64,000 bases of DNA from Eretmocerus hayati (taxonomy: Eukaryota > Arthropoda > Insecta > Hymenoptera > Aphelinidae). A program made the translations under genes and the position numbers. The DNA lies in the NCBI GenBank assembly GCA_029851415.1, contig CM056742.1, forward strand, positions 85,612,748 to 85,676,747, written 5' to 3'. The notes under the pieces were generated by a model, which was not told the DNA's origin, did not search any database, and saw only the letters and a program-made list of their open reading frames with translations. Below are positions 3,769 to 27,661 of this stretch, piece after piece. Every line of letters begins with the position of its first letter. The stretch's first letter is position 1.

Positions 3769-3771
3769 CAG
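3769..3771. repeat. CAG target-site duplication, left copy
   Basis: CAG immediately precedes the terminal GGGCCTTATTC of the left inverted repeat. The same three bases follow the right terminus at 27659-27661. Three-base duplications are typical of PIF/Harbinger elements. The usual target is TWA; I recall CWG targets for some subgroups but could not check this. Confidence 0.65.
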
Positions 3772-4847
3772 GGGCCTTATTCTAAAACGTTTTTCCCTCC
3801 GCGGGAGAAAAATTACCAAAAACCTCCTTACTAGCCAGGCGGGAAATTCGTCGGTCCGCAAAATTCCGCCGTTCCACCGTAAACAGATTATTTTGTGAGC
3901 AAACATGATTGTTCGTCTGCTACTTTTGGTTTCGCGTGAGATATTTCGTGTCCGAAATCTGAATCGGCTGTATCGATCAATCCGCGTAAGTGTTTCGACG
4001 CATGCAATGGAAGTCTGTTGGTTGCTTTAGTATAACTCTTGATTCAAGTTCTGGTGTTGAGTGCTGGTATTCAGTGATGGGACAAAGGCGGGATCTGCTG
4101 ATAAGGATCTGCTGTGGGTGGTGACTTGATGAAGGAAAGTAAAATGTCATCTGTATAATAGCATTCTCGCAAGTTCAACTCAGAAGACAGCCCTTGAAAA
4201 ACTTTTCTCGATCAAGCATGGATATGTGGAGCTGATCATAACCTGCATATTTCAAAGATATTGTTGTCGATGAGAGATATGCCTCTTGGTGACTCGGTTG
4301 AGCCCTCTTTTGAGATTCGATAGCTCCTTGACACTTGTTTGAATGCCAGGTGAGGACGCTAAATCTATAAACCTTCTTTCACCTTTTGCTATTTGTCTCA
4401 CTCGTGCACGTATACTCAAAAGTAATTGATTTGTTTAGCATTCAGGCTGCGTTAAGACTTGCATGGGTGAGTTTTTCTTTCTAGTATGAAAAAATTCAAT
4501 CATTGTAGTCCTCTACAGACTTGAATCAAATGTGCGTATACAGAGGCACATTACAAACTTGCTATTCAATTGACCTAGAACACAGCTCCAAAGAGCACTA
4601 ATTAGTTGAGCACTATTAGTTTTCCTTTTCAATCCAACGATCTAGACTTGGTAGGCTTCAAAGTGGCTTTTCTTCCACCAATGTTACTTTATATAACATT
4701 CATTTCAAATATTCTGGTTTGTTTACATTTTTACTCAATGGTACTAATCATTTCTTTATTTAACTTACAGTTGCAACACTTGGTGACAGACGCACAGTAT
4801 GCCAACAGTGAATGGAAATGTACGAACAAGTGTTGGAACAACCTCAA
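3772..4847 (+). repeat. Left long terminal inverted repeat
   Basis: It matches 26583-27658 in reverse complement over its whole length, with no net length difference and only about half a dozen substitutions seen by eye (for example CCCTCCG versus CGCTCCG near the end, TATCGATC versus TATTGATC near 3973, AGCTCC versus AATTCC near 4585). Similarity stops at ACCTCAA. Splice-like signals lie inside it: an ATG-started stretch ending in a GTAAGT donor, and a TTAACTTACAG acceptor at 4770. The arm may therefore act as a promoter plus leader exon. Confidence 0.85.
3905..3985 (+). other. Possible leader exon inside the left inverted repeat
   Basis: An ATG opens 27 codons (beginning MIVRLLLLVSREIF) that run straight into a consensus donor, GTAAGTG. 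The mirrored stretch in the right arm (27525-27445, - strand) is identical except that CGA becomes TGA, an in-frame stop. So it either codes only on the left or is an untranslated leader. Its position about 130 bp inside each terminus fits a first exon driven from the transposon end. Confidence 0.25.
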
Positions 4848-4969
4848 GAAAGTAAAGCTGTTGCAGGAGGCCTGGTGTTCGACTTCATCTGAGGGTTGCA
4901 AATGAAGTAGCTTATCAGAGTCAAGCCGCGAAAGTCATGGCTGATGAAAATTGCTTCAAGATGTACACT
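4771..4969 (+). other. Possible exon crossing the inner edge of the left arm
   Basis: The segment starts after a pyrimidine-rich acceptor (TTAACTTACAG) and ends at a GTGAGT donor. Its first 77 bases belong to the inverted repeat and the rest is unique to the left side. One frame is open for part of it (LQHLVTDAQYANSEWKCTNK). I recognise no domain. It could be a noncoding leader exon for the transposase unit. Confidence 0.2.
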
Positions 4970-5196
4970 GTGAGTTTAAACTCTGAATTTTTTCCAATTA
5001 CTGTTATATTTTGTGAGAAAAAAGCCACCAACTACTTTTTACAACTATTTTTCGCAGAAAGTGCAAGAATATTGGAAATTTCTGAAAGCACTGTAGATTG
5101 CGCTCTCACGATACCTTTTTCTATAAGTGCACTGTTGTCACGTCATATTAGCCCTCGCATTTACGCTAATTCCTTTATCATCATGATTTTATAGCC

Positions 5197-5271
5197 GCAC
5201 TGTTATAATCTAGCCTATCACAGCCGTCTACGCGTCCTTGGCGGCCGCGATAGGCTAGATTATGACAGTGC
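5197..5271. repeat. Short hairpin, 23-bp arms
   Basis: GCACTGTTATAATCTAGCCTATC pairs with GATAGGCTAGATTATGACAGTGC with one mismatch, around a 29-base GC-rich loop. It lies about 90 bp before the histone relic and could be a MITE remnant. Confidence 0.6.
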
Positions 5272-5362
5272 TAGCTGTAAAAACATATATGCACTTCTGT
5301 ACGTAATCTACTATTCTCATCAAAGGCTGCCATAGTATATCGATAAACATCATCTATTTTGC

Positions 5363-5650
5363 AAGGGCAACTACGCTAAACGAGTTGGTGTTGGAGGCCC
5401 GGTCTACCTCGACGCTGTGACGAGGTCCTGGAGTTGGCTGGTAACGCCGCCCGGGACAATAAAAAGGCCAGGATCATCTCGCGTCATCTCGAACTTGCCT
5501 TCCGCAATGACGAGGAGCTGAACAAATCGTCACCATCTCCCAGGGTGGCGCACTTCCCAACATCTACGCCGTCTTGCTACCCAAGATGACTCAAATCAAA
5601 GAAGTCTGAATTCCAGACCCGATATCAATCGGCCCTTTTCAGGGCCACCA
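5363..5650 (+). pseudogene. Histone H2A pseudogene with 3' stem-loop
   Basis: The translation matches the H2A histone fold in three in-frame pieces. 5363-5419 gives [19 protein letters not shown]. 5422-5526 gives the [15 protein letters not shown] region through NDEELNK. 5529-5609 gives VTISQGG, then [11 protein letters not shown], and a stop at 5607-5609. Two short deletions break the frame, at about 5420 (the LEYL part of the core helix) and about 5527 (the LLSG part). The N-terminal tail is absent. GGCCCTTTTCAGGGCC followed by ACCA at 5631-5650 is the canonical stem-loop of replication-dependent histone mRNAs. Its retention points to capture of genomic DNA, or of the unpolyadenylated transcript, rather than a poly(A) retrocopy. 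No function is expected of the broken gene. Confidence 0.9.
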
Positions 5651-7320
5651 AATTCTTTCAACGTTGAGACATTCTATGCATCTTACTGATCTATCATTGG
5701 TCAGAAGATCTCTACATCTGGTGCAAGCATCTTGTATAATTGATGCTGCACTCGGACAATATCGTCACCTTTCTGGAATGCAACTTGCGAGCCTTAGAAT
5801 GTGGATCCTATCGACGGCTGTCACCCACTGGAGAGATTGATATACCAGCACGATCATATCCCATGTGAGAAATTCGGACGATTATTAGTTGACTTGAGAA
5901 CAGTTGAGATTATTGGTATAGATGAATTGATGCTTCGCCTAATATCGACGTTCAAAAATATTTTCCATTATGTCACCGGACGATCTCTGGATTGCGCCAT
6001 GACTCAACCCAATTTATTTTCGACACTTTCGTATACGTTACGCCAATAATTTTCCTGGTTGCTCATTTTTACATTCGTAATCGTAGTCACGAAGGACGTG
6101 TTTTACACTAATATTGTTTAGAATATTGACTTCGGCATTTTTGTTGTGCTCACTGTCTGAAAATAATATGGAAATATTTCACTTAGATAATATCAAATCA
6201 CATCTAGTTGTAGCCATGTAAAAAATTGCTTGAGATCGAACAGATCACATTTGCGACCGTAATTGTCTGAATGTAAGAAAAGGCAGATGGAGATCTCTTC
6301 CAGAGTACTTGACTAGAGCGTTGAATGTTGTAGCCCCACAAAAAAATCCTCATGTTCTGCCAAAATTTGAGGTGACACCAGCGAGAACTATTTATTAACA
6401 ACCTGCCACATCGATCGACCAGAGAAGTTCATAACTTCCTATAAAAATCAAGTTTTCGCAGAATAAAGGATCTCTGGTTCTACTGAGGTCCTTGAGATTC
6501 GATTCAAGAGCAGAGGAATGGTATACAATTAATCGATTTTGAATTATCATAATGCAAAATCGAATGAGTAATGCAGTGTCGAATTTCAAAAAAAAGAATG
6601 AGTTTTATGGTCAAAAAATTTTGAAGAAATACATTCTGCGTCTATATCGCGAATCTTTATTGAGTTTCGTGGTCGGGGCCCTGCGATTGTTCTCTAATAT
6701 CAAGTACTCAACACCAAATATGCAGAACTTTAGAAAAACTTTCGAAATGTTGAAATGTTGTTTTAGATCTCGACGTGTTTACCGAAAAAATTTTCTGTCT
6801 TTACTTAGAAACGTTCAATTTTCAGATTTTCGACTTGGGACGGCCGTTTGGTCAACACCTGTCTTCCGAAGTTACAATCTGCGTTTGCTACGCTCAGCAG
6901 AAACAATGTGATTCAATTTTCGTCAACTCACGCCTGAGAACGAGCTACAACAGTTGCAAAATCGACCTCGCTATCTATACTTGCACACACACACACGCCT
7001 CTACACTTTTCAACGAGTATCCGTGTTTTTTGCATCTTGTGAAATTCTTTTCACTATTGCCATGATGACGATTAAATTATTCTATTTGACGTAGTCTGCT
7101 GTCTTACTCCGTATTATTCCTGCAAAGTGATTTCAGGATTAAAAATATAATACTTTTGACTTTTGAATATTCAACCGTTCTTCTGAAATTCACTAGGAAG
7201 GCAATTTTTCGACTGTTCGATTATGAAGTAATCAAATTGTATGTCATATGGAACAAATAATGATCTTGTTGATTATTTATCAGAGGTACTTCACTAATCA
7301 GCACCTACTTGTTACTTTAG
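5651..7320. other. No recognisable gene
   Basis: AT-rich sequence inside the large element. Several 60-120 codon open stretches exist, but none shows a family motif or paired splice signals that convince me. A short CA-rich run lies near 6983. Confidence 0.4.
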
Positions 7321-7753
7321 CACATAAGTATGGAACGATCTGGTATTGATCCGTATAACGCCTTCCCTCACGACCTTACCTTTGTTGGAGATTCGAGCTT
7401 ACCAGTGAGCACTATGATCACGGATCATCTTTCTCGAATTGGGATTATAAATTTGAGCGTCCCTGCATTCTTCATATTCTATATCATTCCAAAGCTTCGT
7501 TGGGACGAGCAGTGCTTTATTCTGGCAGGAATGAGAGCTGAGTTATTCCGTTATGTAATAACTGTAAGATATACCATTCAATGCGTTGACACGTCCGGAT
7601 AAGAAAGGGTATAAAGCTAATCAAGATTTTCAGATGGTAATTGCTTTGGTATTTTGGAGGCTGCTTATATCGGTGGATACTTTCACAAGTAACTGTGTTT
7701 GGCCTCGTTCGTACGAGTCTCAATCTCAAATAACGTCGTTCACAATTAAATAA
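7321..7753 (+). CDS. Hypothetical two-exon protein
   Basis: A stretch open from the acceptor at 7320 (ATG at 7330) continues 78 codons to a GTAAGA donor at 7564. A second stretch after TTTTCAG (7634) continues in phase to a stop at 7751-7753, giving about 118 residues. There is one hydrophobic segment in exon 1 (LSVPAFFIFYIIPKL) and another in exon 2 (VIALVFWRLLISV), so a small membrane protein is possible. I recognise no family. It lies about 700 bp before the transposase and could also be a 5' part of that transcription unit or chance. Confidence 0.25.
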
Positions 7754-8469
7754 GCCTCCAAAACACCGAAGTAACTTTTGGAAGATCTGTAATGTACATA
7801 CTTATACCATTCTGATCCAGAGTTCTGGATGCATATAAGAATGAGTTACTTCTGATCATTGCGAGAAATAGCGTACATGTGTCAGCTTCCGAATTTTTTG
7901 TACACGTCACTCACACGACTGTTAATTATGAAAATGAAAGGACCGAGGGCTACAGAACACATTGTGCTAAAGCTCTGGGCGGAACCAATTTTGCAGGTAG
8001 GTAGAGCATGATGAACTCATTGGTAGCTCCTTCGACTTCTTTTCATGTTTGTTCGATGCGCGATCTCTGGCTAGAGAACGATTTGACATATTGAATGGGT
8101 ATAAATCATGATATCCTCATTCACAAATTTTTACAGAGAAGCTTTCAAACACTTCATTTTATGAAAACCCTGTGAGTCTCTGCAAGTCTAAATACATACT
8201 CTGTTTCATAGTGCAAGATTTCTAGCGGAAACTCAACCTTCAAGAACTTCTCCGGAATTTTCTATGATTTTTCACTTCTTTTGATTCATTATGTCTAATA
8301 TACCTTACAAATATGAATCATCACGAATTAAATCTCATGCTCATATATACAGTCTGTAATACTACGTTAGTTCACATTGGATATCGGAAGATTCGAGAAG
8401 TACGAGAAGTGCACCGATCTTTCATTGTCTTATACTAGTGCGAAAGAGTTACCACTTGTGGAAGCAATC

Positions 8470-11400
8470 ATGCGGTTGTCCCTTGGATTGATATTGTGTA
8501 TCTTCACGATCTCGCCATTTAGTAAGTAGGATTTATTCAGAAATTCAAAATTCTTAATTGCTTTGAATTTATCGGGGATATTCATTTCTCCAAGTGGTCG
8601 AGTATCATGAAGATGTCTTACGAAACGGCTTTGAAGAGGTTATCAGCGAAGCATACGCTGAAGCTTGGAACCAAAACAACGATCGAGATCTCATAGACTG
8701 CTTTTACGAAACGTTAATAATTGAACAAAATGACGAAGATCTTCATGGTTTCTTCTTAGAAGCTATTACCGATGAGACAGAACACATGTTGATGAGAGAA
8801 AAGTCTTATAGATTAAGAATCACAAGGATATTCTTGCGGGACATATCAAATCCCTTCGAGACTGATTCTGAATCATTTCGGAGATATTACAGGTGAGAAG
8901 TACTCAAGATCATCAATATACTTGAAGTCTCAATCGTTAGAAAAATATGGAGCTCAACGAAAATCTTCATGCTCGAAAACCTTCAAATGAAATTTCAAGA
9001 AACATATCCCCTTCAATACACGGGTGTGATTTGACGAGTGTTGCTCTGAAATATCATCGTGTATAATACAATCATTTATTATTCAGACTCACGCCTCGAG
9101 CAGCCATAGAATTGATCGAGCTACTAGCACCTATGTTGTTATTGACGAAAGGGACCAAATTTCCAATCCATCTCCAAGTCCTGCTTGCCGTGCGTTTTCT
9201 TGCAGAGGGTATGTACCAGAAATGTTTAGGCCAAGACTTCAATCATCCAGCCAGTCAACCGGTAGTGAGCAGAATCATCAATAGAGTCATCGATGCCATT
9301 GTCACTTTGAAAGATAAATTCATAATTTTTCCTAGCACAAGCGAGGAACGGTTGGCGATCCAAGCTAAGTATGTAATTGACTACACGGCTAAGACGTTAC
9401 CCAATATTTTATACTCAAAAGATACTTTTTATTGAAGGTTCCAACGCACAATCAGAGTTACAGGAATTTTAGGCCTTGTTGATGGATTCATAGTACGGTT
9501 CCTAAGACCTTCACAATTTGAAGAAGCATACTTCAACTACAAAGAAGCAACGAGCATGAACGTACAATTGGTAGGTACACAATCCACGCGTTCTTTTCCC
9601 AACGATGAGGGTACAGATATTCATGATTTGAGGATAGAGTAAGTGTCTGAATTTACAAAAGTATATCTCAATTCTAGAATAGTGATGAATGTATTACACT
9701 GATGGGTATATTTTGTATAAAGTTGATGTAATTTTAATTAGCTTTCGATCAATATAGATCATTGTTCCCAACCTTACACTGTTGGTCTAATTAGCAGTGA
9801 CTTCGAATCATGAATCATCCTCATCGATGCAGCATAACTAAAATGAAAACTTTGACACCCATATTTTACATCTAGTAGCACACAACTATCCGATAAAAGA
9901 GTACAGTGACTTATTACGTGGGTGAACTCACATAAAAACCAGGATTCGTTCAGCAGCAGAGTCCATTCACAGCGCAGTCAACGTGGTTGATCCGATTTTC
10001 GATTGATAATAATCATTGTCGAATAGCCTTCTTTGGCTGATGGTTACTTGAATAAATGTCACCATCATAGAGGCCAGTCACGTTGTGACTCTCAAACTCC
10101 ACATTCTCAAACCCCGTCAAATTATCCCAACCATCTGCAAAGTGGAAAACTTTATTTAAAATACTCGCATGTAATACGTAACATCAGTTCATCATGATTC
10201 AAAATAGAACTGTAGAATTTGCAATATTTTCATCTTAGATTTGTGATGCTGATGGTGTGGTCAGAGGCTTGCGCATTTGTCCAGGAAGTAATAATGATAT
10301 TTACAATTGGGAGATGAGCCAAGCTCTACTTTATATGAAAGCTTTGAGAGGTGATCCAAAAGTAAGAATGGAAGAGGGAATCTACTACCTACTTGGTAAG
10401 TTTGATTCAATCAACCAAAGATATGAGGAAGTAGTTTCTGAATGTGAGTGAGTGGTATGATGAGTGGATACTCAAAAAAATTTTAGCTCCACTTCCTTTA
10501 GGAATAACGAGTAAAGAATAATGAATCAACAATATTTCATTCTCTAAGAATAGAACAAATCTGAAGTGAGACCTTCACAATTTTACGTAGTGAGAACCAT
10601 CTCAACTACCCTTGCTGGAGTATATACTATACTAGTTAACTTCTTTTGACTATACGAGTTATTTGAATGACTATTGAGGGTGATACCGTTCTTACCTTTC
10701 ATTGCTACACGATGAAACTAGTAGGGTGAGCTATTGTACGAACCACCTTGTCAATCCTCGTTAATCCAAGATATAGTCAAATGGAGTAAGTACTGGCAGG
10801 CTTTTGCAAATATCAAGAGCAATTATTCCTTGATGATCTTTCAAGACGTCTCAATGAGTCTCATCTGATTAACATAGTGAACGCTGATGTTGCTGGCTGA
10901 TGTCATGCAATGGAGCACCTCTTTATCTTGGATGAACATGACTAAGCTGAAACCTGCCAGACCTTAAAATAGAAGAATCACTATTGAGAGACAAGCATTC
11001 GTCATGATCATTTCGTATAAATTGATAAAGATGATTCTCATCACCCATTGGGAAATTGGTTTCCCCAATTTTACAATCAATTTACACTTCTTGATTAGGT
11101 TGTACATGATGTGGTTTATGTACATTTTTTTCAAATAAGGTGTATCCAAAAAGGAACTTGTAATCATTATTTTTACAGCAGATGCAGGCTACTCGCCCTC
11201 TACTGTCTTATTGACTACACCTACTGAGGGAATCACACCTGGGACGCCGATGGGAGAGTATTACAAAGAACATTGCACAACCAGAAGTCTCGTAGAGCGA
11301 ACCATAGGAGCTGTGAGCGGTGTTTGGAGGGCAATCAATAGAGAGAACAAGCTTCATTATACGCCAATAAAGGTTGCCAAAATTATAACCTCTTGTGCAA

Positions 11401-11648
11401 TCTTGCATAACTTCAGAAAAATGCATGGGTAATGGAACGATGATTGCAAATAGTATGGAATGCTAGATTATTATTATTAAATTTCATAGAATTGATTACT
11501 GCACTTCTATTTCAGACTTCCTGATCCAGAACAGACCCCAGAAACTAGCCCCTCCAAATCTTCTGAAACTGTGCATGAACTAAATGAAGATTACTATGCA
11601 GGTCTTGCTGAAAGGGATTTTATCGTAGACTACTTCTACAATAAATGA
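8470..11648 (+). CDS. PIF/Harbinger (HARBI1-like) transposase, seven exons
   Basis: The exons I infer are 8470-8521, 8595-8892, 9087-9368, 9438-9570, 10239-10395, 11179-11428 and 11516-11648. All introns are GT-AG and the frame holds throughout (about 434 codons; human HARBI1 is about 350). The DDE nuclease fold of Harbinger transposases is recognisable from ILGLVDGFIVRF (D226), ICDADG and PGSNNDIYNW (D275), ADAGYSP (D309), RSLVERTIGAVSGVWRAI (E347) and the closing helix VAKIITSCAILHN. A helix-turn-helix-like stretch (QPVVSRIINRVIDAIV) precedes it. The acidic catalytic residues appear to be present; the usual TH after the first DG is FI here. The first exon is hydrophobic and the least certain part; the frame stays open upstream to about 8442. 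It is convergent with the Myb-like gene at 13283-15212, as in autonomous Harbinger elements. Domestication as a host gene is an alternative. Confidence 0.85.
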
Positions 11649-13282
11649 TCAGTAAATAGTAGGTAAAATGCCAAAAGTATCTTACGGGTGTGCTGCCTAG
11701 TCGCCATACATACTCTGTCGAAATCGTTCTCTGAATTTGTGTGCTGAAGCATGTATCACCTGACACAACTCATCACGCAATGTTTGGCAGTATTTGCTGT
11801 CTTGGTTGTAAGATGCGTCAAAAGTTGTTCACTGTGCTATAATACACTGTAGCTCGTATGATATAGCTCTAGCCTTCTTCGAGGTATAGGCTAATCATCT
11901 GACATTGTCATCTTCTAATAAAAATGATATGAACATCACGCAGCTTTCTCTGAATCGTCGTTCTGGTTGGATAATTGATAAACTAAAACAAAATTATTCA
12001 CAGTTCAATTTCATAAATCGTTACTCCAAATACTTTTTGAGGAACTAACTACTCTAATGAAGCCACCTTGCAATTCAACGACACCTCCCTAAATAGGAAA
12101 GATATTGAGAAAAGAATCTTTACACCGAAGAAAGCAAAATTAGGATCAACGAGAATCTTTGATGCCTATGCGAGTGAACAAAATTGGTACTGCGTCAGTT
12201 AGTTGTAGTTTAGCAATATTGAAAGCACTAAAGCAGCGAGCTTGTGTTTTAGTGAGATATATCCATACTTCACAAAGTATACCTTGCACCATTCTAGTTT
12301 TGCATTCTTTACTACTTCACCTACCACAGTCTAGCTCTCAAGAGCTACAGAAAAGAACAACCAGGTTACTTAAACTAGTGACAAACATTTTTATTAATTA
12401 GCAATATTTGATCAACTACAATTACATAAATGGGGGAATGATACCATTTGATGATGCAGCACATGTTCAAACATACCAAGAAGACACTGGTGGACATAAA
12501 AACAAATGTTCAATATTATGCTGACTCTTAATTGTGATGAGATGAGGATCTTACTAAATTCATCATGAGTAGAATTTAACTTCATTTTGAGAATGAACAA
12601 TACATTTTATGATATAAATAACGGAAATTACATGTTGGATGGTACACGCTAGACCCATCACAAGAAAGATATCCTCATAATATTGGGATTTCGAGATTGT
12701 CATGATGATTGTCATGTATACCATTATTTCAGCAAAAGTTACGCAACTTATATATTAAAGACAGAATTAATGACAAAATGTAACAAGCATTATACAACTA
12801 AGAATTAGTTCCAGAGATAAATCCATGCGTTACCATCAAAACTAAGAGAGATGACAGTCGAGTGCAATATACCAGTGAGCATCAAGAATAGATGATAATC
12901 AAGTGCAATGAGAGTTAGCAATAAAGATGGATGATAATCAAGCGTGCAATAAGAGTTGGCAACAAACACAGATGAGAATCGAAAGTGCATTAAGGGTTAG
13001 CGAAATCACTCACCACTAATTTTTTGTTGCTGAGAAGTATTTCAAAGCGACTGAAACAAGTATTCATAATAGTGGACGATTCGATATTGAAATGATCATT
13101 GACACGTTTATCAGTATTTCAGCAAAGATGTTCAACTTACACATCTAAGGGCAACATCAAACTAGATGAAAAAATGTTACGAGTCCACTACTGAAAATTT
13201 AGTTCGACAAATAAAACCATGCATTACCCATCAATACAAATATAGGTGATAAATAAGTGCAATGAGAGTCTGAAAAAAACAC
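11649..13282. other. Intergenic gap between convergent transposon genes
   Basis: AT-rich, with no gene seen. It contains a minisatellite-like stretch and, at about 12690-13050, a diverged tandem duplicate of the Myb-like gene's 3' end, both listed separately. Confidence 0.5.
12835..13010. repeat. Minisatellite-like repeat, ~50-bp unit
   Basis: GATGATAATCAAGTGCAATGAGAGTTAGCAA-like units recur three to four times with spacing near 50 bp. A related unit appears again at about 13245-13275, just before the Myb-like gene's stop codon region. Confidence 0.55.
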
Positions 13283-15212
13283 TCACTTCTTCTTCTTGTT
13301 GCGCAAAAGTTCTTCAAAGCTTTCAAGATTCTCTTCTTCTTCTTCTACTTGACGATTGTCATTGTCAGCGACCGGAGCCTCCACCCATATAAAGGGTTGG
13401 GACTCTTGAAATCCTTCATTATTCATCTGCGACTCGTCGAACTCGTTATTTGTTGGGGCATTTCCGAGCCCTAATATCTGATGATCCGCTTGTGCACTCA
13501 ATCTCTTATTTATTTCGGAGGTACTTTCGGAAATATCATCCACTTTCGTCTCCACGCTCCTGATTATCTCGCTTTGATCATGGAACTTTCTATCTATATG
13601 TAACATGACATCTTCCAAGGCTTTTTTGAAAGCTTGGTGGAGTATATCTGCTGCTGTCTTCGGTGCATCTCCCTTGCTGGCCATGGGTTCTGAAAATAAA
13701 ATATTATAAGGTATAGTAACAGGTAAAAACAATTTTCCAGAGTGCAATAAGGGGAAAACTTACCTTCACTCAGAGATGAGCCTATGCGTGCATTCATCTT
13801 AGTGTATATGTCTATTTTAGCTTTTTTATCCAATTTTTTTAATGAAGTTGATGGGTCGATTGATGTACGCTCTTTTTTGATTGTCATTGAAGCAGTTTCA
13901 GCTTCTGATTCAGTGTCAAGACAAATACTATCCACTAGAAAGAAGATAAACAGTACAAAATTAATAACCCTTGATAAAGTTAACTTATTGGCCAGATGAA
14001 AATTCGAAGCGAGTTGGCAGATAATTCTTACATGTACGCTTCACTGGCCGAAGACTGTTAGTCGCTGTACGATTATGATCGCTAATGCTTCGATGACTGT
14101 TCACCTTCATCGATGAAGAAGAGGCTCCATTCGAGAGAGTTTTACCTAAGTTTTAGCAAGATGATTAATTTATGGACCATCAATGACAATTTCAAACATC
14201 AAAACTGGATTCCTTACTTGAGGATACACCGGTCGAAGTGGATCCTAATTGTTTCGTGGAATTGTTTGCACGTCGCGATGCAGCCTGGGCGAGGAGAAAA
14301 GACTTGTCGTCTTCACTATCAGATGAATCATCGTCTGGCATCTCTGGAGCAAAATGACAGTAATTAGTCAGCGCGAAATTCTCGTTATTCATAAAACATA
14401 TATAAATGAGAATTAATTCCCAAGTTGGAATGATATTCAAGATATGAAGATTGTTATTATTTTGATTAGACTATGAATAAAAAAAATGGACGGATGTAAT
14501 AGAGATGAGGAGCAAAGGAAAACAAAACTCACCTTGGCCACGAGACGCAGCAAACTTGATTGGTTTCTTTCCTTTTTTCTGGGAGAAGAATTGCGAAGCA
14601 GAACTCTTCAGTCGAGATCCATAATCTACACTTTCATCGTCGTCATCATCGTCTCCATCGTCGTCATGGTCATCATGGGCCTCGGCGTCACTCATTACGC
14701 CTCCCCAACTGATGATGATGTTGTACACTCTGCTGTGTAGCGCATCGAGAAATGCTGTCGAGCCTCCATTTCTATTCACATTTTTGAGGGTTCGTTTTAC
14801 CAAATCATCCCAAGTCTAGAAAGAATTAAAAGATAGTTGAATTATATTAAGAGAAGAATTTAGTTAACCGCCAAAAAAGAAAGCTGATTCTAACTTCATA
14901 AGGAGATTGACTCATATACAGAATATTATGACATACATTTTTGAGATGAGAGATACATGTTATGAGATACATATTACAGAAGCAAACTCTTGAGTTCAAA
15001 ACAGAAAGAGGATTATGATCAATTTTGAAATTGAAGAAACAAGAAATTACCTTGCGCCACTGTTTTCGTGAGCGTGAGGGCCAGGTTTTTTCAAGGGCAT
15101 TTGTCAACCTCTTCCACTCTCTCTCTCTCCTTTTAATGTTTTGCCGAATTCTAGATTGTTTTCAATGAATGAAACGACAATATCCAACTGCTCCTCAGTG
15201 GCATCGGCATCA
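13283..15212 (-). CDS. Myb/SANT-like Harbinger partner protein, frameshifted
   Basis: Exons in transcript order are 15212-15051, 14815-14533, 14343-14218, 14146-14032, 13934-13764 and 13689-13283, all with GT-AG borders and matching phases. The N-terminal part is a trihelix/Myb-SANT-like fold: TEEQLDIVVSFIENN, then EWKRLTNALEKTWPSRS, then KQWRKTWDDLVK. A long acidic run (DDHDDDGDDDDDD) and Ser-rich linkers follow, then a likely coiled coil (ALEDVMLHIDRKFHDQ) and an acidic C-terminus ending NKKKK. In Harbinger elements such a protein binds the transposon ends and helps import the transposase. An (AG)6 run at about 15117-15128 puts the two halves of the DNA-binding domain in different frames; five units would restore the frame. 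The start exon was not found; 15241-15356 on this strand is one open candidate. Confidence 0.7.
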
Positions 15213-17489: not shown

Positions 17490-18790
17490 CCGCTGAGGGC
17501 CACCCGAGTAGGAATCTGGTATGGCGCGCTGTACGTGCACGTCTGGGCCAAATACTGGCAAGCGCATGCCCGCCGGATCGGCATGTGTAATGCTCTTTGG
17601 CGCTTAGGCCAAACACGGCGCTCATATGGCGGGGGTATGATACTAACACCATCATGCGCTGCCGTTCATCGCTGTGCTTCGGCATGGCTCGCCGACTCAG
17701 CGCCGTTCTTGCGCTAAGAGGCAAAATGAAAATTGAAAATCTCGTTAGTTTTGGTTGGCAGATGAATCATCGAGTCATCGTTCTTTTTTCAGTTAATTGC
17801 TAATATAATTGAATTCGACAATTCTTCATGACGGCTACTAAATTGTAAGGAAGTTGGACTGATTTGAAAATGCTCATGCACTTTTTAAAATTTACTTCCT
17901 CCAGTTAATGTAAACCTTGAAGCTAGAGAATAATTCTTCTATAACCCGATGGATGATTCTGACGAAAGTGATCCCGCTTGCCAACTATATAATATGGATC
18001 GATCGATGCTTTCTTTGGGAATTGTAACGTCATACGAATTTCGAAGGATGATATTCTTTTGTGGAAATATTTTCTATTTATGATAGATTTTTAAAATAAT
18101 CTCACGCCTTCCTTCCATGCGAAACAACTCATTAGTTCTCGGAATGAGGCGTTTGAATTGCATTAAATTGTCTTTTCGGAGTTTCCGTAATATCAGCCTC
18201 CATGCAGCATAATGTAATATCACATGTTGTTACTTCATCACGAAAAATCGAAGAAATTGTCATGATTATCCCATTTAAGCAGTGGAAAGGGGCGAATGAT
18301 TCTTCGTGTCTCACTCGCGAGCAAAGATTTTTTATTAGGCTGAAATAGAGCACCCCAGAAAATTGATCGAGAAATAGGATCAGTTCTCATCAGTGACTCC
18401 CGATTCACTCGAATAAACTCATGATATCAGCCAATTAAAGAGTCGCCGAGTGCAAATTAGACTGTAATTATCACTCCACATTTCATATTCCATCCATAAT
18501 GATCAAAGATTCTCAAGAATAATGTGAAAAACATCCCCAAGTGCAACTTTCATTTTGCCTTTTGGTGCACGAACGGCGCTGAGTCGGCGAGTCATGCCGA
18601 AGCACAGCGATGAACGGCAGCGCATGATGGTGTTAGTATCATACCACCACTATACGAGCGCCGTGTTTGGCCCAAGCGCCAAAAAGCATTACACAGCCAA
18701 GTTTGGCGCAGACACTGAAAAACGGCGCGTCGAGTTCGGCCCAACTCTGCGCCAAGTTTGGATTCTTACTCGGGGCAGTGGCCACCACCT
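17490..18790. mobile_element. Foldback element with GC-rich arms
   Basis: 17490-17733 matches 18548-18790 in reverse complement. The shared core includes ATGCCGAAGCACAGCGATGA and GCATGATGGTGTTAGTATCA. The outer parts of the arms have diverged and contain repeated TTTGGC/GCGCC motifs. The ~815-bp loop is AT-rich and has no gene. The arms are far richer in GC than their surroundings, so both strands show spurious ORFs. I could not place the exact ends or a target duplication. Confidence 0.6.
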
Positions 18791-19247
18791 TTCTGTCTCA
18801 TACCACCTCATAATCCACTATTGTTTAAACAAATTCTCTGAAATTGTTTATGAAGGGCTCAAACTATTTTCCTAGAATAATTCAGTGGACTTCGAGCAAA
18901 AAAGATCTCTAGATATTTTTTCCTAAACTTGATCGTCTTCGAGTAATAGCAATGCCAGTTCCGCGACTTGCAACCCTCAATGCGGCGCTTTCATGAATGC
19001 ACTTAGAGTTGCAAGCCGCGGAATTGGCCATTCCCATTATTCGAAAACAATCAAGACTAGGATAAAATATCTGGAGATCTCTTCTGCTCCAAATTCACTG
19101 AATTATCTTGTGGTCTATTATAAATAATAATTATTGTGCAGCTCCTCGATTCCCCTTCTATATGTGACAATTTTCCAACCTGATGTTAACAGTGTGAAGC
19201 AAACAAAATAGTCCGGGAGACGTTGCCGCGGATGAGGTGCAACTGTA
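18791..19247. other. No recognisable gene
   Basis: AT-rich. A short imperfect inverted repeat around ATTCCGCGGCTTGCAACTC and its relative (18957-19035) is visible. No coding region is supported. Confidence 0.4.
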
Positions 19248-19249
19248 TA

Positions 19250-20169
19250 CACTACCGTTCGAAAGTTTCGTGCACGCCTAAAAAAAAAATTTCGATTTTG
19301 CTCACTCGACTGCTTGGATCTCCTTGGTCCAAAATAACTCTACTTGGGCTCATTTTGTAGCTTTTTCCAAGTAGCTTAAGAGCTGTTTGTTATTATTTCT
19401 GCGCAGCTCAATAGATTCTTGCAAAATCAATCTGAAGCCTTGTAGAGTTTCATGAAAATCGGGTCATTATGCAAACCTCTGCAAGTCTGGCGGAAATTGA
19501 TGGATTTAGATGATTCAAAAAGCACCTTAAAGTAGAAGTCAAGAGCTTTAAAATCTGTTTTTGAAAATTATTCTAGATTATTTCTGGTCTGAGCTGTTAC
19601 TGTTTTTGTAAGGAAAGATTTTTCTCGAAGAAGAGTCCCAAAAATCACAAAAGGTGACGAAATCGGGCTCACGGTGGCATTCCTCTGACTTTTCCAAGTT
19701 TTTCCGTGTTGTTGGTGAGAGGAACCAAGACCAGTGCTTACACTTGTGAAAAAATTAGTCCATTCATAATTTCTCAATGTCTGGTCTTTTTTTCAAGAAA
19801 AATCATCCTCTACAAAAAGTGTCATAGCTCGGACCAGAAACATACTAAAATAATTTTCAGAAACGGATTTTGAAGCTTTTGACTTATACTTTCAGATGCT
19901 CCTTGAATCATCTAGCTCCATCAATTTCCGCCAGACTTGCGAAGGTTTGCGTAATGGCCTGATTTTTGTGAAATTCTACAAGGCTTCAGATTAATTTTGC
20001 AAGAATCTATTGAGCTGTGCAGAAAAAATACCAAATATTTCTTAAAGTGCTTGAAAAAAGGCTACAAAATGAGCTCAAGTACAGCTGATTTGGACCAAGG
20101 AGATCCGAACAGTCGAGTGAGCAAAACCGAATTTTTTTTTAGGTGTGCACAAACTTGTGACCGGTGGTG
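19250..20169. mobile_element. Tc1/mariner-type palindromic MITE, 920 bp, TA duplication
   Basis: The outer ends CACTACCGTTCGAAAGTTTCG and CACCACCGGTCACAAGTTTGT (reverse strand) match, and TA flanks both sides (19248-19249, 20170-20171). The whole unit folds back on itself: arms of about 370-430 bp, for example TTGCTCACTCGACTG against CAGTCGAGTGAGCAA, around a short loop near 19620-19790. There is no transposase; it would be moved in trans. The CACTACCG...AAAGTTT end resembles Tc1-like termini and TA is the Tc1/mariner target. Confidence 0.75.
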
Positions 20170-21810
20170 TATACGTGCGTGCGAGCAGAGTTGTAAGAGA
20201 ATTAGAAACGCTACTTCACGTAGAATACCACTATACCAGCGAACACGGCTGCCAAATCCTAAGTTAGTTATTAATAACTGGTTGGTTTAGCGATTTGCAG
20301 CCACCTTACTAACCAAAGTATATCTTGAGATGTAATGAGATGTAAGTGAGATGGGCCATGGCCACGAACCATGAGGTGGAACCCAGATCACACTAAATTT
20401 GTCACATTTCCACCGTATTTCCAGCTTTTCCGCGAAAGAGAGCCGATTGGCCAAATCCGCTGTAGAATCGGAGAAGGGAAGCAAGGCGAAGTGTAATAAA
20501 TTTGAATTGCGTGGGTCCCACCACTACTCCCTTTCTCCTCTGGGCAATTGGTGGCCATCTTGGCTCACCCCCCTTTCTCCTCTGGGCACTTGGTGGCCAT
20601 CTTGGCTCACCCCCCTTTCTCCTTTGGCCTCCTCTCTCCTGCCTCATATTTCAGAGCGAGATTTCACCGGCAACAATTTGCGATTCTACACAAAATCATA
20701 TCTTCGAACAAGTACACATATAATTTAGATACAAATTCACTGACAAGTGAGTTCGTTTAATCTTCAATGAAAGCGTGGAAAGAACAACAACTCACATAGA
20801 CACGGACAAAGGGCCTCAAAGATGGGCCTCTCTTAAGTTTGGAATGCTTCATATAGAAAAAGAGCTACATACAATCCATAGATTTCCGCGAGAGGAATGA
20901 AATTGTTTGAGCATTTTTTAGATACAAGGATGTTTGTTGAAGAAAATATGCGATTAAATGGAAAAACCGACCAAAATTTTGCTGTCACAAAAACAAAGCT
21001 TTCTCTTTGGAGAAAGCAAAATAAGAATAATATAAGATGATTTGAATATGCGCTCTTCTAACTAAAAGAGGATAAAAATAATATTAAACTACTAGAAGTG
21101 AAGCTTTAAATCATAGAGGTACAGCGCACGAAGTACTCCACACACAAGGAAACAACATAAATTTATTTCGAGAATCACCAATCAAATTTTTTGTCAATCT
21201 GCTCGGAAATCCGACATAGACCTATTTGTTAACCCGAAAGCGTCCGTATAATACAATGACCTTATTTGAGAAATGCCTCCTCGCGAACTTGGATTAAATT
21301 GAGATCTTACTGAGAAAATTTCAGCCAGGCGAGGCAATTTACAAATTTCTTTGGTGAATTCGATATTTTCAAATTTGGATTAAGTTGCGGGTTTTAAATA
21401 ATTGAATCTCGCGGTGGCATAAGAGCTCTATCTTCGAGGGATCTACCCGGGTATTGCTCCTAGCATAACACTTTTAGGCTCAGAGAATAATCAAGCATAA
21501 TGCAAATCAAGCATAAAGAGGATAATCAGCCGTGCAAGTTACTTATTGATTTCAACCACCTTAATTTTGATTCCATTCTCATCAATAAGCTTCTCTTCGA
21601 TCGCAGACACGCGTACATGCCAAAGCAACGATTTTAGCATGCAGCCACGTCAGCAGATAAAAAAGAGTTGCATAATCGATTTGATTAACAAAAATAGTTC
21701 GAACGCTCATTGATTATCCGTGATTAATATACAGGGAGTTTTAATTAGAATATACGATATAAATTGCCACAGAGGATTCGCCCAGCTGGCGGAGAATGTT
21801 TCTTATGACG
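20170..21810. other. Mostly featureless, with a small tandem repeat
   Basis: No gene is supported. The stretch 20290-20520 is less AT-rich than the rest. A short tandem repeat at 20528-20640 is listed separately. Confidence 0.4.
20528..20640. repeat. 43-bp tandem repeat, ~2.6 copies
   Basis: The unit starts CCCTTTCTCCTCTGGGCA and ends GCCATCTTGGCTCACCC. Two full copies and one partial copy are present. It makes overlapping ORFs on both strands that are not genes. Confidence 0.85.
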
Positions 21811-22099
21811 TACAGTCCCTATACCATTAATAATGGAGCATGCATACCTATACTGATTCGGCGATAACTCCAATCTTCTCGGGTCTAAATTGGCGTTTAA
21901 AAAATAATTCTGAAGGTCATGAAAAGACCTCTCATAAATCATGTAAGACGAATATTCTTTCCAATTTTTTTAGTGGGTCCAAATCAATGATAAAAGTGGA
22001 AAAAAAATTTACTTCAATCAATCACTTGTCATTTTGACGGAGATAAGTCCATCAGAAAAATTCTTGCAGCATCTTGTAGGTCTGTTCAAGACCTACAAT

Positions 22100-22638
22100 T
22101 GGCTTTTTTAAAAATATTCTACGGCCTTTTTAAACCAAAATAGAGCCATTCTACGGCTAACATGTAACACATGCGAATCCGAGTGGCGCAGAGGTTTGAT
22201 ATTCTCAAGTTTCGATTTTTAATGCAAAAAAATCATCATCGAAAATGTTCAGAATACATGATTTCTAAGTAAAATTGTCTCAATTTTTCGAAAATTGAGT
22301 CAGAATTACTCTATAAGGTAACGAAAATGATTTAAAGGACGTTTTCTGCCCGAAACCGAGGTTTTCTCGTCAATTTTTGATTCTATGGACATTTAAATCA
22401 TTGTCGTCACCTTGTAGAGAAGTTCTGACTTCATTTCCGAAAAATTGAGCCAATTTTACGTACAAATCATGTATTCTGACCACTTCCGATGATGATTTTT
22501 TGCTTTAAAAATCGAAGCTTGAGAATATCAAACCTCTGCGCCACTCATCGACTATATGGATTCGCATGTATCACATGTTAGCCGTAGAATGGCTCTATTT
22601 TGGATTAAAAAGGTCGTAGAAAATTTAAAAAAGAAGCA
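22100..22638. mobile_element. Nested foldback MITE with tRNA-like A box
   Basis: The arms pair from GGCTTTTTTAAAAATATTCTACGG inwards to about 22330, and about 22400-22638 on the other side. TGGCGCAGAGG, present in both arms, resembles an RNA polymerase III A box, so a tRNA-related origin of the arm is possible. It lies directly beside the inner edge of the enclosing foldback. Confidence 0.6.
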
Positions 22639-23054
22639 AATTCTAAGGTAACTGTGCCTAGTTTGGCCCATTCAAGGTTTCCAATATATGCACCCGCAGA
22701 CCTTGCCGCGCATTTTTCATGATTGTTACGTTAAAATATGAGAAACTAACGTTCTGGACCTATCCTCAATGACCCGCGCATTTCTCACAACAAAAACGTG
22801 GTTATCGGCACTTTCGACTTCTTTTTAGTTGGTCACTAAAAGCTATGCCGAACAAAATTGATGTGATCAATTCCAGCGTACTTAAACTCATTTTCTTTGT
22901 CATTATCCCAACTTCAGAATACTTTTTGAAGAATTGCGAAATTCGATTTCTAGCAGAATCTACGTCCATATTACTAAAAAAGTGGAATGCTCCTTTCCCC
23001 CATAGTCTTTTTCCAAACTCGTTGTTCACTACATTCAAATACATCGATCTCACA

Positions 23055-23378
23055 AAGGGAGTCCGGAGTCTCTGGGTTCTGAAATCTCACCAAAATTTTT
23101 TTACAGTTTCGTACCACCTAGAATATGAAGATCCCAAAGTAAGTCTGTCAAATGGGCCTCCCGTTCAGAGCTACAGCCTATGACGTTAGCATTGCCCATA
23201 TAGGCCCATGTTAAAGAGTGATATATATAGATATACCAGCAATGTTGACGTTTCTAGCTGTAGCTCAGAACAGAAGGCCCATTTGGCAGAGTTGCTTTAG
23301 ATTCTTCATATTCTAGGTGGTACGAAACTGTAAAAATTTTGGTGAGATTTCAGGACCCGGAGACTCCGGACTCCCCTT
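23055..23378. mobile_element. 325-bp palindromic MITE, copy 1
   Basis: The ends AAGGGAGTCCGGAGTCTC and GAGACTCCGGACTCCCCTT pair, and the inner arms GTTTCGTACCACCTAGAATATG and CATATTCTAGGTGGTACGAAAC pair as well. The centre, TGCCCATATAGGCCCATGTTAAAGAG, recurs in copy 2 at 31900-32227, which shows a dispersed family. Confidence 0.8.
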
Positions 23379-24177
23379 GTCAGTAAAAAAATTTGAAAAA
23401 GGATAAAAAAAAGCTACAAAATGAGCTAAAGCACGTGTTATTTGGAGGTCTAGGAGCCGAAATATCCCGATTATACGAAAAACCCGTATAATCTCATGGA
23501 GATAGGCCTCTTTCCCACGTGGGCGAAAATTAAGAATACACTGTTGAAAACTCGCAAACAATCTTCTTTTGCAAAAATTGAGATATCTCGTCTCCAATTT
23601 ATTGGAATGGAACGTTCGTTAGCTCATTTTAAAGGTCTTGAAACAAGCTTCAATGTGAGCTCAAGTGTGTTGGAAAATATGGAGATGAATCAGGATGGCG
23701 AGCAAAAAAAAGTAGTGGGGGCAAATTAGGCACACTTACCTCAGGTCTTGGAAAGACCTACAAAATGCCACAAGAACTTTTCTGATAAACTCATCCCCGT
23801 CAAAATAACAGGTGATTGATTGAAGTCAATTTTTCCCCATTTTTGTCATTGATTTGGACACACTAAAAAAAAATTGGAAAAAATATTCGTCTTACGATTT
23901 GCAAGGTCTTTTCATGACCTTCAACATTCTTTTTTAAACGCCCTTGTAGACCCAATAAGATTGGAGTTATCGTCGAATCAGTACAGGTATGCTCGTTCCA
24001 TTATTTATGGTAGGGGCTGTAAGTTAAAAACTTAGCTCAAAATCGAAACTGTTCTGTACAAGAGTCACGATAACTCTATGTCAAAATGAGGCCACGTAAG
24101 AAGTCTTTGCAACCATTGAAATGACAGCAGCGAAAGGTAATTTACATCGAATTGACGGACAGTATTCTGATACTCAC

Positions 24178-25152
24178 ACAAACGAGAACCCGCACTCAGG
24201 ATATACTTCAAGGCCTAGTCCCGGTTGGCCAAAAATTTGGGCTATGCGAAGATCTTCATCCGCTACTTTAATACTCGGTTTGTTGTGTCCGGTTTTATTG
24301 AATGCCTTCAAATATTTGACACTTCGTAGCCTTCCATCGCGACGCATTGTAGTCCAGTACTGAAACATTTATTTAAAAAAATATATGTAACAGAAGAGAG
24401 GATCGTTAAGAAAGACAAAAAAACTGGAACCCGCGTGAGTGATCGTAGCCCTCTGCTGCAATCATAACTCTCCAAAGAAATCGGAGTCAGTTATGAATAT
24501 AGTCTGAGAGCAAGTATGAAGTGATGCATTGGCTTGCGGAAATAGATTAAATATATATTCAGTAGCATATTAGCCTCGATATCAGCAGTCCGTTAGAATC
24601 CGCACAATAAGATTGACAGATGCCTTTCTCGATATTATGTAAGAATCTTTGAACGATTTCAACATCATGCCTGATCTTATAGAATTACATAAGTGCTTAC
24701 TAAGAACGAATGAATTTGCATCAACAACTTCAATTTTGGAGCCGGACTGTTTACAAGTTACTGAGTAGATGTTTCAGCGTAAGTTTGCTGTGCTAATAAT
24801 TGTAGATATCGGAAAATCGAGTTGTCAAATATTTATGCAACTAAATGCACAGAGGAATCGCTTTTTGAAAATTTTTGGAGATGCTTGGTGATAATTCTCA
24901 CCCGGAACTCACTTTCATCCACTCTTTCCCATTTTTCTTGGCTGGTCCAATTTTGTTCAGTGTCACGGCCAATTTCTTCCACATGGCATGGCGCTTCAAG
25001 TTACCCCCACTACCAATTTTTGTAACTTGGCCTCTTGCGAATAGTGTATGTTTCTCGCAATAAGATATAAGAGCTCTTTTCTGGTCTAGCCCTACACGAG
25101 GTGACCTGGAATTCATCAGAATCTTAAAAACTGTATAAGTTACTGATATCAT
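24178..25152 (-). CDS. Zeste-type Myb/SANT-like DNA-binding gene, partial
   Basis: Two exons are visible: 25152-24913 (ending TGGATGAAA before GTGAGT) and 24359-24178 (after TTTCAG, ending before GTGAGT), in phase with each other. The joined product has the regulatory-zeste-like Myb/SANT fold found in many insect proteins: RVGLDQKRALISYCEKHTLF, ARGQV, MWKKLAVTLNKIGPAKKN, KEWMK then YWTTMRRDGRLRS. A Lys-rich linker and IAQIFGQPGLGLE follow. The upstream limit is uncertain (ATG at 25150, or an acceptor near 25117). Downstream exons, if any, were probably separated by the foldback at 21811-24021. It is a second candidate DNA-binding partner inside the large element. Confidence 0.65.
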
Positions 25153-25202
25153 TTGAAATTACTAGCGGAGTAATCGAATCAGTTGATAGATCAGTAGCTG
25201 AA

Positions 25203-25406
25203 TTATACCGTAGCAAAATACTGATCGACTATCGAAAGAATGGCGTAAATGATGATAGCAAAGTAACGCACAATGGCGATTTGATCTGTTAGATTGATGG
25301 GTTGAATTTGGAGTTTGGGGCGAAAGAAGAGTCGAGCAGCGGATACGTTTCCGATATTTTGAGTGTAACTTAAGAATCTTTCAATTTTATCCCCGTAATT
25401 CAAGTT
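25203..25406 (-). CDS. Hypothetical terminal exon with one membrane segment
   Basis: After a GATCACAG acceptor the frame is open for 67 codons to a TAA at 25205-25203. It begins NLNYGDKIERFLSY and ends with a hydrophobic stretch (IVRYFAIIIYAILSIV). It lies just upstream of the zeste-type exons on the same strand. I recognise no family. It may belong to the same transcription unit as a possible exon at about 26161-26010 that reads like a signal peptide (LCLIALVLYSCAS) but has a stop directly before it. Confidence 0.25.
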   Translation of the reverse strand, partial: NLNYGDKIERFLSYTQNIGNVSAARLFFRPKLQIQPINLTDQIAIVRYFAIIIYAILSIVDQYFATV

Positions 25407-26582
25407 CTGTGATCAGAGATTCGTGGTACATGCAAAAAAATATGAAAGAGTTGAGTCAATTTTATCCGTGATTGTGATGTTTCATTTATGATTCTTCGAT
25501 AAACTCTCTTTGTTTAAAGAAATCATGGATGCAGAAATATTCGTACCATTCTACTTTTACATTGATTTTTGAAAGAAGCAATCGTAGCATAATTATTCAA
25601 TTTACTCCTTGATGAGCTTGAAAAATTGGACGCTGCGTATATACGATCCTGATCGTACATCTCGTTGTTTTCTCTATGAAATTTATACAAATTCCTGATT
25701 ATTGAAGCGAAAATCTCTCTGTAGACTTGAATTTCGATTTTTCTTCATTTGCCATAAATTGAAAACTATTAGGGATATGCATAGAAAAAAATGAACTAAT
25801 TCATGAAGAATTTCGAGTAACAATGAGAATAAACAAATCGATATTATGAATCTCAAGGATTTTCACGCCAAAATTAGGGAACGAGGACTAGCTCTCAATT
25901 CATTATATGAGAAATAATGCACGGTCTGTGAGCACGAAAAAATGATGTCCCACAAACGAAATTCTGCAGCTCTACACGACTGATCAGAGAATGAAACCCG
26001 AATAAGGGACTGACCTCTTCTTCTCTCGAATGCTGATTTTTCTCCTGGCCTGACGACAACGCATGACTGATCGCATCTCTATCGTCGGCTGTCGAATTTT
26101 TTGGCTGGTCAACATTGGTGAATGATGCACAGGAATAGAGAACCAGCGCAATCAAGCACAATCAACGATGATCAAGATGATGCAAGTTCCTGTCAAGAAA
26201 AAATCGAAATACATTGAGTCAACATCTTCACTGCAATAACGGCGATTCCTACCAAGACGTAGGATCTCATTGAAAGATGCAGATACCAGCTGCAAAAAAA
26301 CTTTTACTAATACGTCGTTGAGACATACAATTGCGGAACATCGGATTCACCAAAGAATTGACACTGTCCCAGTTCGTTAACACATCAAATTGGAATACAT
26401 CAATGAATAAATCCTTTCGAAAAAGGCTGTTTGTTGTGACTCGAGCAACTGATCAAAATTGAAGCAAATTGTGAATAGTAACAATAGGTTCAACCTCTTT
26501 AGGCGTTAGAGATGGACCGTCGACCGACGGTAATAACCCCTATGCGGATTCTAAACTTCTGATTGGTTTGATATCAATTGGT
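25407..26582. other. No well-supported gene
   Basis: AT-rich. About 26161-26010 on the - strand is an open, signal-peptide-like stretch ending at a GTCAGT donor, but it lacks an ATG and follows an in-frame TGA, so I do not call it a gene. Confidence 0.35.
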
Positions 26583-27658
26583 TTGAGGTTGTTCCAACAC
26601 TTGTTCGTACATTTCCATTCACTGTTGGCATACTGTGCGTCTGTCACCAAGTGTTGCAACTGTAAGTTAAATAAAGTAATGATGAGTACCACTGAGTAAA
26701 AATGTAAACAAACCAAAATATTTGAAATGAATGTTATATAAAGTAACATTGGTGGAAGAAAAGCCACTTTGAAGCCTACCAAGTCTAGATCGTTGGATTG
26801 AAAAGGAAAACTAATAGTGCTCAACTAATTAGTGCTCTTTGGAATTGTGTTCTAGGTCAATTGAATAGCAAGTTTGTAATGTGCCTCTGTATACGCACAT
26901 TTGATTCAAGTCTGTAGAGGACTACAATGATTGAATTTTTTCATACTAGAAAGAAAAACTCACCCATGCAAGTCTTAACGCAGCCTGAATGCTAAACAAA
27001 TCAATCACTTTTGAGTATACGTGCACGAGTGAGACAAATAGCAAAAGGTGAAAGAAGGTTTATAGATTTAGCGTCCTCACCTGGCATTCAAACAAGTGTC
27101 AAGGAGCTATCGAATCTCAAAAGAGGGCTCAACCGAGTCACCAAGAGGCATATCTCTCATCGACAACAATATCTTTGAAATATGCAGGTTATGATCAGCT
27201 CCACATATCCATGCTTGATCGAGAAAAGTTTTTCAAGGGCTGTCTTCTGAGTTGAACTTGCGAGAATGCTATTATACAGATGACATTTTACTTTCCTTCA
27301 TCAAGTCACCACCCACAGCAGATCCTTATCAGCAGATCCCGCCTTTGTCCCATCACTGAATACCAGCACTCAACACCAGAACTTGAATCAAGAGTTATAC
27401 TAAAGCAACCAACAGACTTCCATTGCATGCGTCGAAACACTTACGCGGATTGATCAATACAGCCGATTCAGATTTCGGACACGAAATATCTCACGCGAAA
27501 CCAAAAGTAGCAGACGAACAATCATGTTTGCTCACAAAATAATCTGTTTACGGTGGAACGGCGGAATTTTGCGGACCGACGAATTTCCCGCCTGGCTAGT
27601 AAGGAGGTTTTTGGTAATTTTTCTCCCGCGGAGCGAAAAACGTTTTAGAATAAGGCCC
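26583..27658 (-). repeat. Right long terminal inverted repeat
   Basis: Reverse complement of 3772-4847, 1,076 bp, no net length difference. Its outer end reads CGTTTTAGAATAAGGCCC before CAG. The leader-exon-like stretch is mirrored at 27525-27445 but carries TGA in place of CGA. The near identity of the arms suggests recent insertion or recent homogenisation, in contrast to the decayed histone relic inside. Confidence 0.85.
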
Positions 27659-27661
27659 CAG
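27659..27661. repeat. CAG target-site duplication, right copy
   Basis: CAG directly follows the right terminus GGCCC, matching 3769-3771. Confidence 0.65.

Follow-up and report, generated by a model that had tools for sequence, protein, structure and literature searches.

A 23.9-kb element in the Eretmocerus hayati genome that fits the NuwaI type of PHIS transposons and carries 1,076-bp terminal inverted repeats

NuwaI elements, a group within the PHIS superfamily of cut-and-paste transposons, make CWG target-site duplications, usually start with GGG, and encode a DDE transposase together with a Myb/SANT protein (PMC4482050). Their reported terminal inverted repeats are 12 to 61 bp long, their autonomous members average 4,462 bp, and the 16 animal host species of that survey include no hymenopteran (PMC4482050). 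PIF/Harbinger elements proper duplicate TWA, and their longest reported repeat is 1,042 bp (PMC4482050). In Medicago, MtPH elements that have repeats and duplications can be as long as 25,288 bp, and the longest one holds two nested insertions (PMC2213677). We analyzed a 64,000-nucleotide stretch of the genome of the hymenopteran Eretmocerus hayati (assembly GCA_029851415.1, contig CM056742.1, positions 85,612,748 to 85,676,747 of the forward strand; this whole stretch is the window, and position 1 is its first letter). It contains a 23.9-kb element between long inverted repeats, the arms, which is almost certainly one PHIS-superfamily NuwaI-type cut-and-paste transposon that inserted as a unit with duplication of CAG.

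The borders of the element are these.

3769-3771, no strand: left target-site duplication, CAG
3772-4847, plus strand: left terminal inverted repeat, 1,076 bp, starting GGGCCTTATTCTAAAACG
26583-27658, minus strand: right terminal inverted repeat, 1,076 bp
27659-27661, no strand: right target-site duplication, CAG

The arms align without gaps and differ at 9 of their 1,076 positions (6 transitions and 3 transversions; 99.16% identity), and their outermost 24 bp are the same, in agreement with the initial annotation, which had described inverted 1,076-bp arms with few differences and CAG outside both. Without the duplications the element measures 23,887 bp, of which 21,735 bp is interior. When we searched the window with one arm by BLASTN, the two arm positions were the only matches at E<=1e-3. 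Even when as many as 3 mismatches were allowed, the 18-bp terminus occurred in the window only at the two outer ends (0.03 occurrences expected from shuffles), and it had no exact match in viral_contigs.

We searched the assembly (692,130,109 bases in 17 contigs, four of which, C1 to C4, were used below) with the left arm. The published assembly was built from PacBio HiFi reads at 693-fold coverage, with heterozygosity of 0.01% (PMC10482854). At least 16 stretches matched at E<=0.001: the window pair, one more full-length inverted pair, one lone full-length arm, and shorter diverged pieces. Of the five full-length arms found, four thus form two inverted pairs and the fifth is unpaired. The second pair bounds a copy of 14,729 bp that lies on a different chromosome (C4:80259377-80274105) and is oppositely oriented; its arms measure 1,076 bp, and it has CTG on both sides. 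This C4 copy is colinear with window positions 17718-27658 (99.41% identity), 8382-10010 (99.39%) and 3772-6948 (98.84%). It retains transposase exons 1 to 4 only, together with all three exons of Myb/SANT gene 2, and lacks two blocks of the window element.

6949-8381: block missing from the C4 copy
10011-17717: block missing from the C4 copy, holding transposase exons 5 to 7 and SANT-like gene 1

An 817-bp locus (C2:5956422-5957238) has both termini, short related ends, and CTG on both sides; judged by these features, it is an arm-only derivative. The sequence GGGCCTTATT forms both ends of the window element, of the C4 copy and of this derivative, and CWG duplications (CAG/CAG, CTG/CTG and CTG/CTG, respectively) flank all three loci at which both ends were found. 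The initial annotation had suggested looking for paired inverted copies with 3-bp duplications and for arm-only, nonautonomous derivatives. Because the C4 site has the same arms, its own CTG/CTG duplication, different flanks and a colinear interior, it supports the window element being one mobile unit, and because a shortened, near-identical copy lies on another chromosome, the element moved recently. The proposal of a single giant Harbinger-like element that had moved recently is supported in this way, by a second locus with equal arms, CTG duplications and 98.8 to 99.4% interior identity.

The flanks of the window element and the C4 copy are unlike at the borders (2 kb compared on each C4 side). 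The only flank matches at E<1e-3 were pieces of a dispersed hairpin repeat (35 to 97 bp, 74 to 86% identical), lying 39 to 183 bp from the window element and 55 to 434 bp from the C4 copy. Since the flanks are otherwise unlike, a segmental duplication is not indicated within 2 kb of either C4 border. A diverged hairpin repeat stands divided around the window element.

3588-3683 and 27703-27791: two halves of the diverged hairpin repeat, one on each side of the element

When the window flanks were joined, they formed a 91-bp inverted pair (71% identity) and aligned with a relative that lies unbroken next to the C4 copy, with scores of 114 and 124 in the two orientations, against a maximum of 42 in 100 shuffles. 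This supports the view that the joined flanks were formerly one sequence, and the element apparently lies within a hairpin loop of this kind. In the unbroken relative, the loop holding the target site is too diverged for CAG to be read at the base level. Hairpin loops are possibly preferred as targets, an observation from two loci only.

Three genes were recognized within the element.

8470-11648, plus strand: transposase gene (DDE_Tnp_4), 434 amino acids, 7 exons (8470-8521, 8595-8892, 9087-9368, 9438-9570, 10239-10395, 11179-11428, 11516-11648)
13283-15218 (upper limit approximate), minus strand: SANT-like gene 1, tail-to-tail with the transposase gene
24177-26115, minus strand: Myb/SANT gene 2 (PF13873), 159 amino acids, 3 exons (26115-26015, 25105-24913, 24359-24177)

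All transposase introns are GT-AG, the spliced frame is open, and residues 1 to 255 are identical to E. hayati protein QAD02_013430. Without its first 17 residues, the protein matched PF13359 (DDE_Tnp_4) with E=4.3e-22 and 78.9 bits (cut-off, 24.8), and a DDE triad, D226/D275/E347, aligned with those of four paralogues (33 to 46% overall identity). The transposase is apparently intact. A protein search returned seven proteins, namely, the gene itself, the four paralogues and two weaker ones from JGI and ENA; a sequence search of PDB found no relative. Myb/SANT gene 2 starts about 0.47 kb inward from the right arm. A 129-amino-acid piece of its product matched PF13873 with 31.0 bits (cut-off, 21.7), as did P0010 from the C4 copy with 30.6 bits, and the product differs by one residue from QAD02_008457, the protein encoded in the C4 copy. 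Further protein relatives were located in diverged copies of the element on C3 (QAD02_000836) and C1 (QAD02_017614). With both PF13359 and PF13873 matched above their cut-offs, the DDE transposase and Myb/SANT coding sequences noted inside the element by the initial annotation are present. SANT-like gene 1 is less regular. A 133-amino-acid piece of its last exon is identical to part of QAD02_013432, its putative SANT region is broken by a frame change in a GA run near 15.1 kb, and the annotated model begins downstream of the putative SANT exons; with XX placed at the shift, the match to SANT was weak (E=0.078, below the cut-off). The Harbinger element of Ectocarpus likewise has its genes tail-to-tail (PMC12477816).

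The CWG duplications, the GGG ends and the content of a DDE transposase plus a Myb/SANT protein, in an animal host, fit the NuwaI type of the PHIS superfamily. Strict PIF/Harbinger elements share the transposase superfamily and the Myb/SANT partner; unlike the CAG and CTG found here, their duplications are TWA, and about 93% of their families have repeats shorter than 60 bp (PMC4482050, PMC9710019, PMC9179366). The PIF/Harbinger label of the initial annotation therefore stands for the kinship of the two proteins and not for the strict group. Unlike described NuwaI elements, the window element has arms of 1,076 bp, a length of 23.9 kb and two SANT-like genes. The Medicago MtPH elements differ in being from a plant, in their TTA/TAA duplications, and in the 14- to 25-bp repeats given for autonomous elements (PMC2213677). 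Neither about 24 kb nor kilobase repeats are unprecedented alone, given the Medicago element and the 1,042-bp maximum, so the size and arm length first singled out as unusual are so in their combination, which is an outlier. Giant KDZ, EnSpm and Sola-1 elements of Ectocarpus are also cut-and-paste transposons with nested insertions that are generally common to copies, so that movement continued; they belong to other superfamilies, and the excerpted text does not count that genome's Harbinger as one of the giants (PMC12477816). Harbinger has no occurrence in a review of giant transposons (PMC6431247) or in the main text of either genome paper (one of them PMC10482854), and among the open-access titles and starts of abstracts that were listed, none concerned a giant NuwaI element or Harbinger in E. 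hayati.

Part of the size of the element comes from other transposons and host sequence.

5197-5271, no strand: short MITE-like (miniature inverted-repeat transposable element) hairpin, an inverted repeat with approximate ends
5348-5600, plus strand: histone H2A pseudogene, 5' truncated, in three pieces in different frames
5626-5672, plus strand: histone 3' untranslated region (UTR) stem-loop (RF00032, 35.2 bits, cut-off 34)
17584-18695: inverted 152-bp pair (92%), a probable nested element with approximate ends, its right half (18544-18695) within the portion common with the C4 copy
18877-19106: hairpin of about 230 bp, a probable nested MITE, common with the C4 copy
19248-20171: nested TA-flanked element with ends TACACYACCG..., which we take to be mariner-like, common with the C4 copy
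21813-24019: nested TA-flanked element with ends CAGYCCCTA... and palindromes at 22094-22645 and 23049-23383 inside, common with the C4 copy

The two TA-flanked elements total 3,131 bp and, with three further inverted pairs, would make about 4.5 kb; without nested transposons, about 19 kb would remain, about four times the NuwaI mean length. Both TA-flanked elements lie where the window element and the C4 copy are colinear and therefore predate the parting of the two copies, and the nested transposons common to both therefore traveled along with the element. The H2A pseudogene is 71 to 89% identical to a fly-type H2A sequence (E=2.7e-25), and its region also occurs, about 79% identical, in the diverged C1 relative. 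It is host sequence recognized with confidence and is not working cargo. The extra cargo first proposed thus amounts to at least 3.1 kb, and perhaps 4.5 kb, of nested transposons, and the host sequence recognized with confidence is this pseudogene. Each of the 64 stop-to-stop frames that span 70 amino acids or more was scanned against Pfam; taken as single frames, only the transposase frame 11139-11429 was over a cut-off. A frame across the inner end of the left arm (4606-4902) resembled 7tm_7, the insect chemosensory receptors (E=0.00029, 20.7 bits, cut-off 26.6), with no 7tm_7 match by the left arm alone or by the right-arm frame, and frame 25866-26078 resembled DUF4685 (E=0.00079, below the cut-off). 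Given 64 frames tested, the gustatory receptor and DUF4685 matches are leads only.

Two diverged relatives bear on the history of the arms. The C3 relative (about 94% identity) covers window positions 12891-15179, pieces of 16575-17479, and 23518-27658, with QAD02_000836 inside; its right arm is present, and 59 kb of sequence on the other side contained no left arm. The C1 relative (C1:7396606-7403286; 67 to 90% identity) has Myb/SANT gene 2 (QAD02_017614), a single arm broken into pieces, and two H2A segments in inverted orientation. Its inner inverted pair (758 bp) is 97.8% identical within itself and only about 79% identical to the window; it spans sequence that adjoins the inner side of the left arm in the window, which hints at an inverted repeat longer than, or shifted from, that of the window element. 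Further arm pieces lie at C2:16.6, C2:125.3, C3:1.5, C1:115.2 and C2:191.9 Mb (compared with the element only).

Over 1,076 sites, the window arms differ from each other at 9 (0.84%), the C4 arms also at 9 (0.84%), and arms of the two elements at 7 to 10. The C3 arm differs from each of these four at 40 to 43 of 1,069 sites (3.7 to 4.0%). The interior next to the right arm (24030-26582) had 11 mismatches in 2,553 columns against the C4 copy and 119 in 2,562 against the C3 relative. Because the C3 relative shares the right arm-interior junction at the same place, in one aligned stretch, the two-arm state is older than the C3 split. With the C3 arm as the outgroup, the four arms of the window element and the C4 copy vary at 17 sites, of which 16 show a change private to one arm; at the remaining one, site 967, the derived letter is common to both left ends. 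Shortly before the window and C4 copies parted, the arms were therefore almost the same, though the two-arm state is older. The arms within an element seem to have been homogenized, the simplest reading being that one arm was copied onto the other after the C3 split, and the inner pair of the C1 relative also hints at arm copying. We thus rejected an insertion date from arm identity, and the earlier argument that near-identical arms imply recent movement does not hold; the result is a caution against dating insertions in this way. Of the 9 differences between the window arms, 7 fall in the innermost 424 bp (binomial 0.023, the boundary having been picked post hoc), a pattern too weak to use.

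In the proposed mechanism, the transposase would cut at both GGG ends and join them to a CWG target, and the Myb/SANT protein would bind the ends and assist it, as the family suggests. The Myb-like protein of zebrafish Harbinger3_DR both binds a subterminal motif and interacts with the transposase (PMC9710019). Nested transposons and the H2A pseudogene would have enlarged the element before its last move, the C4 copy may have lost the 3' half of the transposase gene and SANT-like gene 1 through internal deletion, and the two arms may be kept alike by one being copied from the other, plausibly in gap repair after excision. Several points weigh against this account of a NuwaI-type unit. The 1,076-bp arms are outside the 12 to 61 bp reported for NuwaI, which is a descriptive range and not a group criterion. 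No second full-length 23.9-kb copy was found in the assembly, the C4 copy being shorter, and the C3 and C1 relatives each have one end that is not recognizable. The two-arm history is based on one diverged relative, the C3 copy without one end. Frame 24901-25158 of Myb/SANT gene 2 on its own (20.8 bits) and P0011 of the C1 relative (20.0 bits) fall under the PF13873 cut-off. Autonomy of the element is uncertain, given the frame shift in SANT-like gene 1 and the weakness of the SANT match there.

Two other readings are each very unlikely. Two related elements in opposite orientation might surround host DNA that never moved as one, as the nested insertions and the H2A pseudogene in the interior would allow; a 21,696-bp stretch in Medicago with repeats and duplications is such a mosaic, of two related elements and a nested retrotransposon (PMC2213677). 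For the shared parts this is refuted by the C4 site, with the same arms, the same interior order, its own CTG/CTG and different flanks, and the termini occur at the outer ends only. An ordinary 7-kb Harbinger-like element carrying the transposase and SANT-like gene 1 might instead have inserted into an older, nonautonomous giant. The two genes form a compact tail-to-tail block (8470-15218), much of which is missing from the C4 copy. However, the C4 gaps at 6949-8381 and 10011-17717 spare exons 1 to 4, mismatch the supposed inserted unit and resemble internal deletions, and the C3 relative also holds 12891-15171. We scanned three regions for alternative 14-bp inner ends with equal 3-bp duplications, taking ends beginning with A or G only and four simple block shuffles per region; the scan recovered the true ends of the element as a control. 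There were no hits at <=1 mismatch. At <=2 mismatches the regions gave 2, 1 and 1 hits (shuffles, 0-4, 0 and 0), so the latter two exceed their own shuffles, and none of the hits has CWG or TWA.

The chance that fold-back or misjoined reads produced the inverted copy is close to nil: long inverted repeats are prone to misassembly, yet the arrangement stands at two independent loci, each of the four arms has private differences, and the HiFi assembly has the depth and low heterozygosity given above. Just as implausible is a Maverick/Polinton or other virus-like giant, since Mavericks/Polintons, similar in size and repeat length, have 6-bp duplications, a protein-primed polymerase B, a retroviral-type integrase and capsid genes, whereas here 3-bp duplications at three loci accompany a PHIS-type transposase and no polymerase B, integrase, ATPase or capsid family was matched in the 64 Pfam-scanned frames.

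On the reading of a single NuwaI-type transposon, the window adds a giant PHIS element from an animal, its ends exceptionally long, together with a recent deletion derivative in which the nested transposons recur and a derivative consisting of arms only, all in a long-read genome, and NuwaI may extend to Hymenoptera. It is conceivable, though we think it doubtful, that the kilobase ends are functional and maintained: repeatedly copied arms would offer many more Myb/SANT binding places and offset a size-linked loss of mobility, so that a giant would go on moving whole, along with its nested transposons and host gene pieces. For Spy, which is also a PHIS group, it was proposed that long repeats make transposase binding easier (PMC11304231), and larger PIF/Pong/Harbinger elements are less mobile (PMC10288884). 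Two questions become testable here: whether longer ends compensate for element size, and how the arms of one element stay alike.

Other features of the window lie outside the element. To its left, at 465-2600, is a tandem satellite-like array of about 164-bp units. A 1.03-kb near-perfect palindrome at 38063-39092 (91.6% by BLAST) resembles a long hairpin or fold-back element. Positions 28099-28150 matched the Rfam insect-specific flavivirus 3' UTR repeat Ra with 41.9 bits (cut-off, 41); the region is GC-rich with antisense open frames, two frames from it had no Pfam match at the thresholds used, and the similarity may be due to chance. The surroundings are rich in transposons, with long terminal repeat retrotransposon remnants (reverse transcriptase RNase H and Copia-type RVT_2) and a long interspersed element remnant (RVT_1 with endonuclease) at 48389-54404 and 60994-63985.

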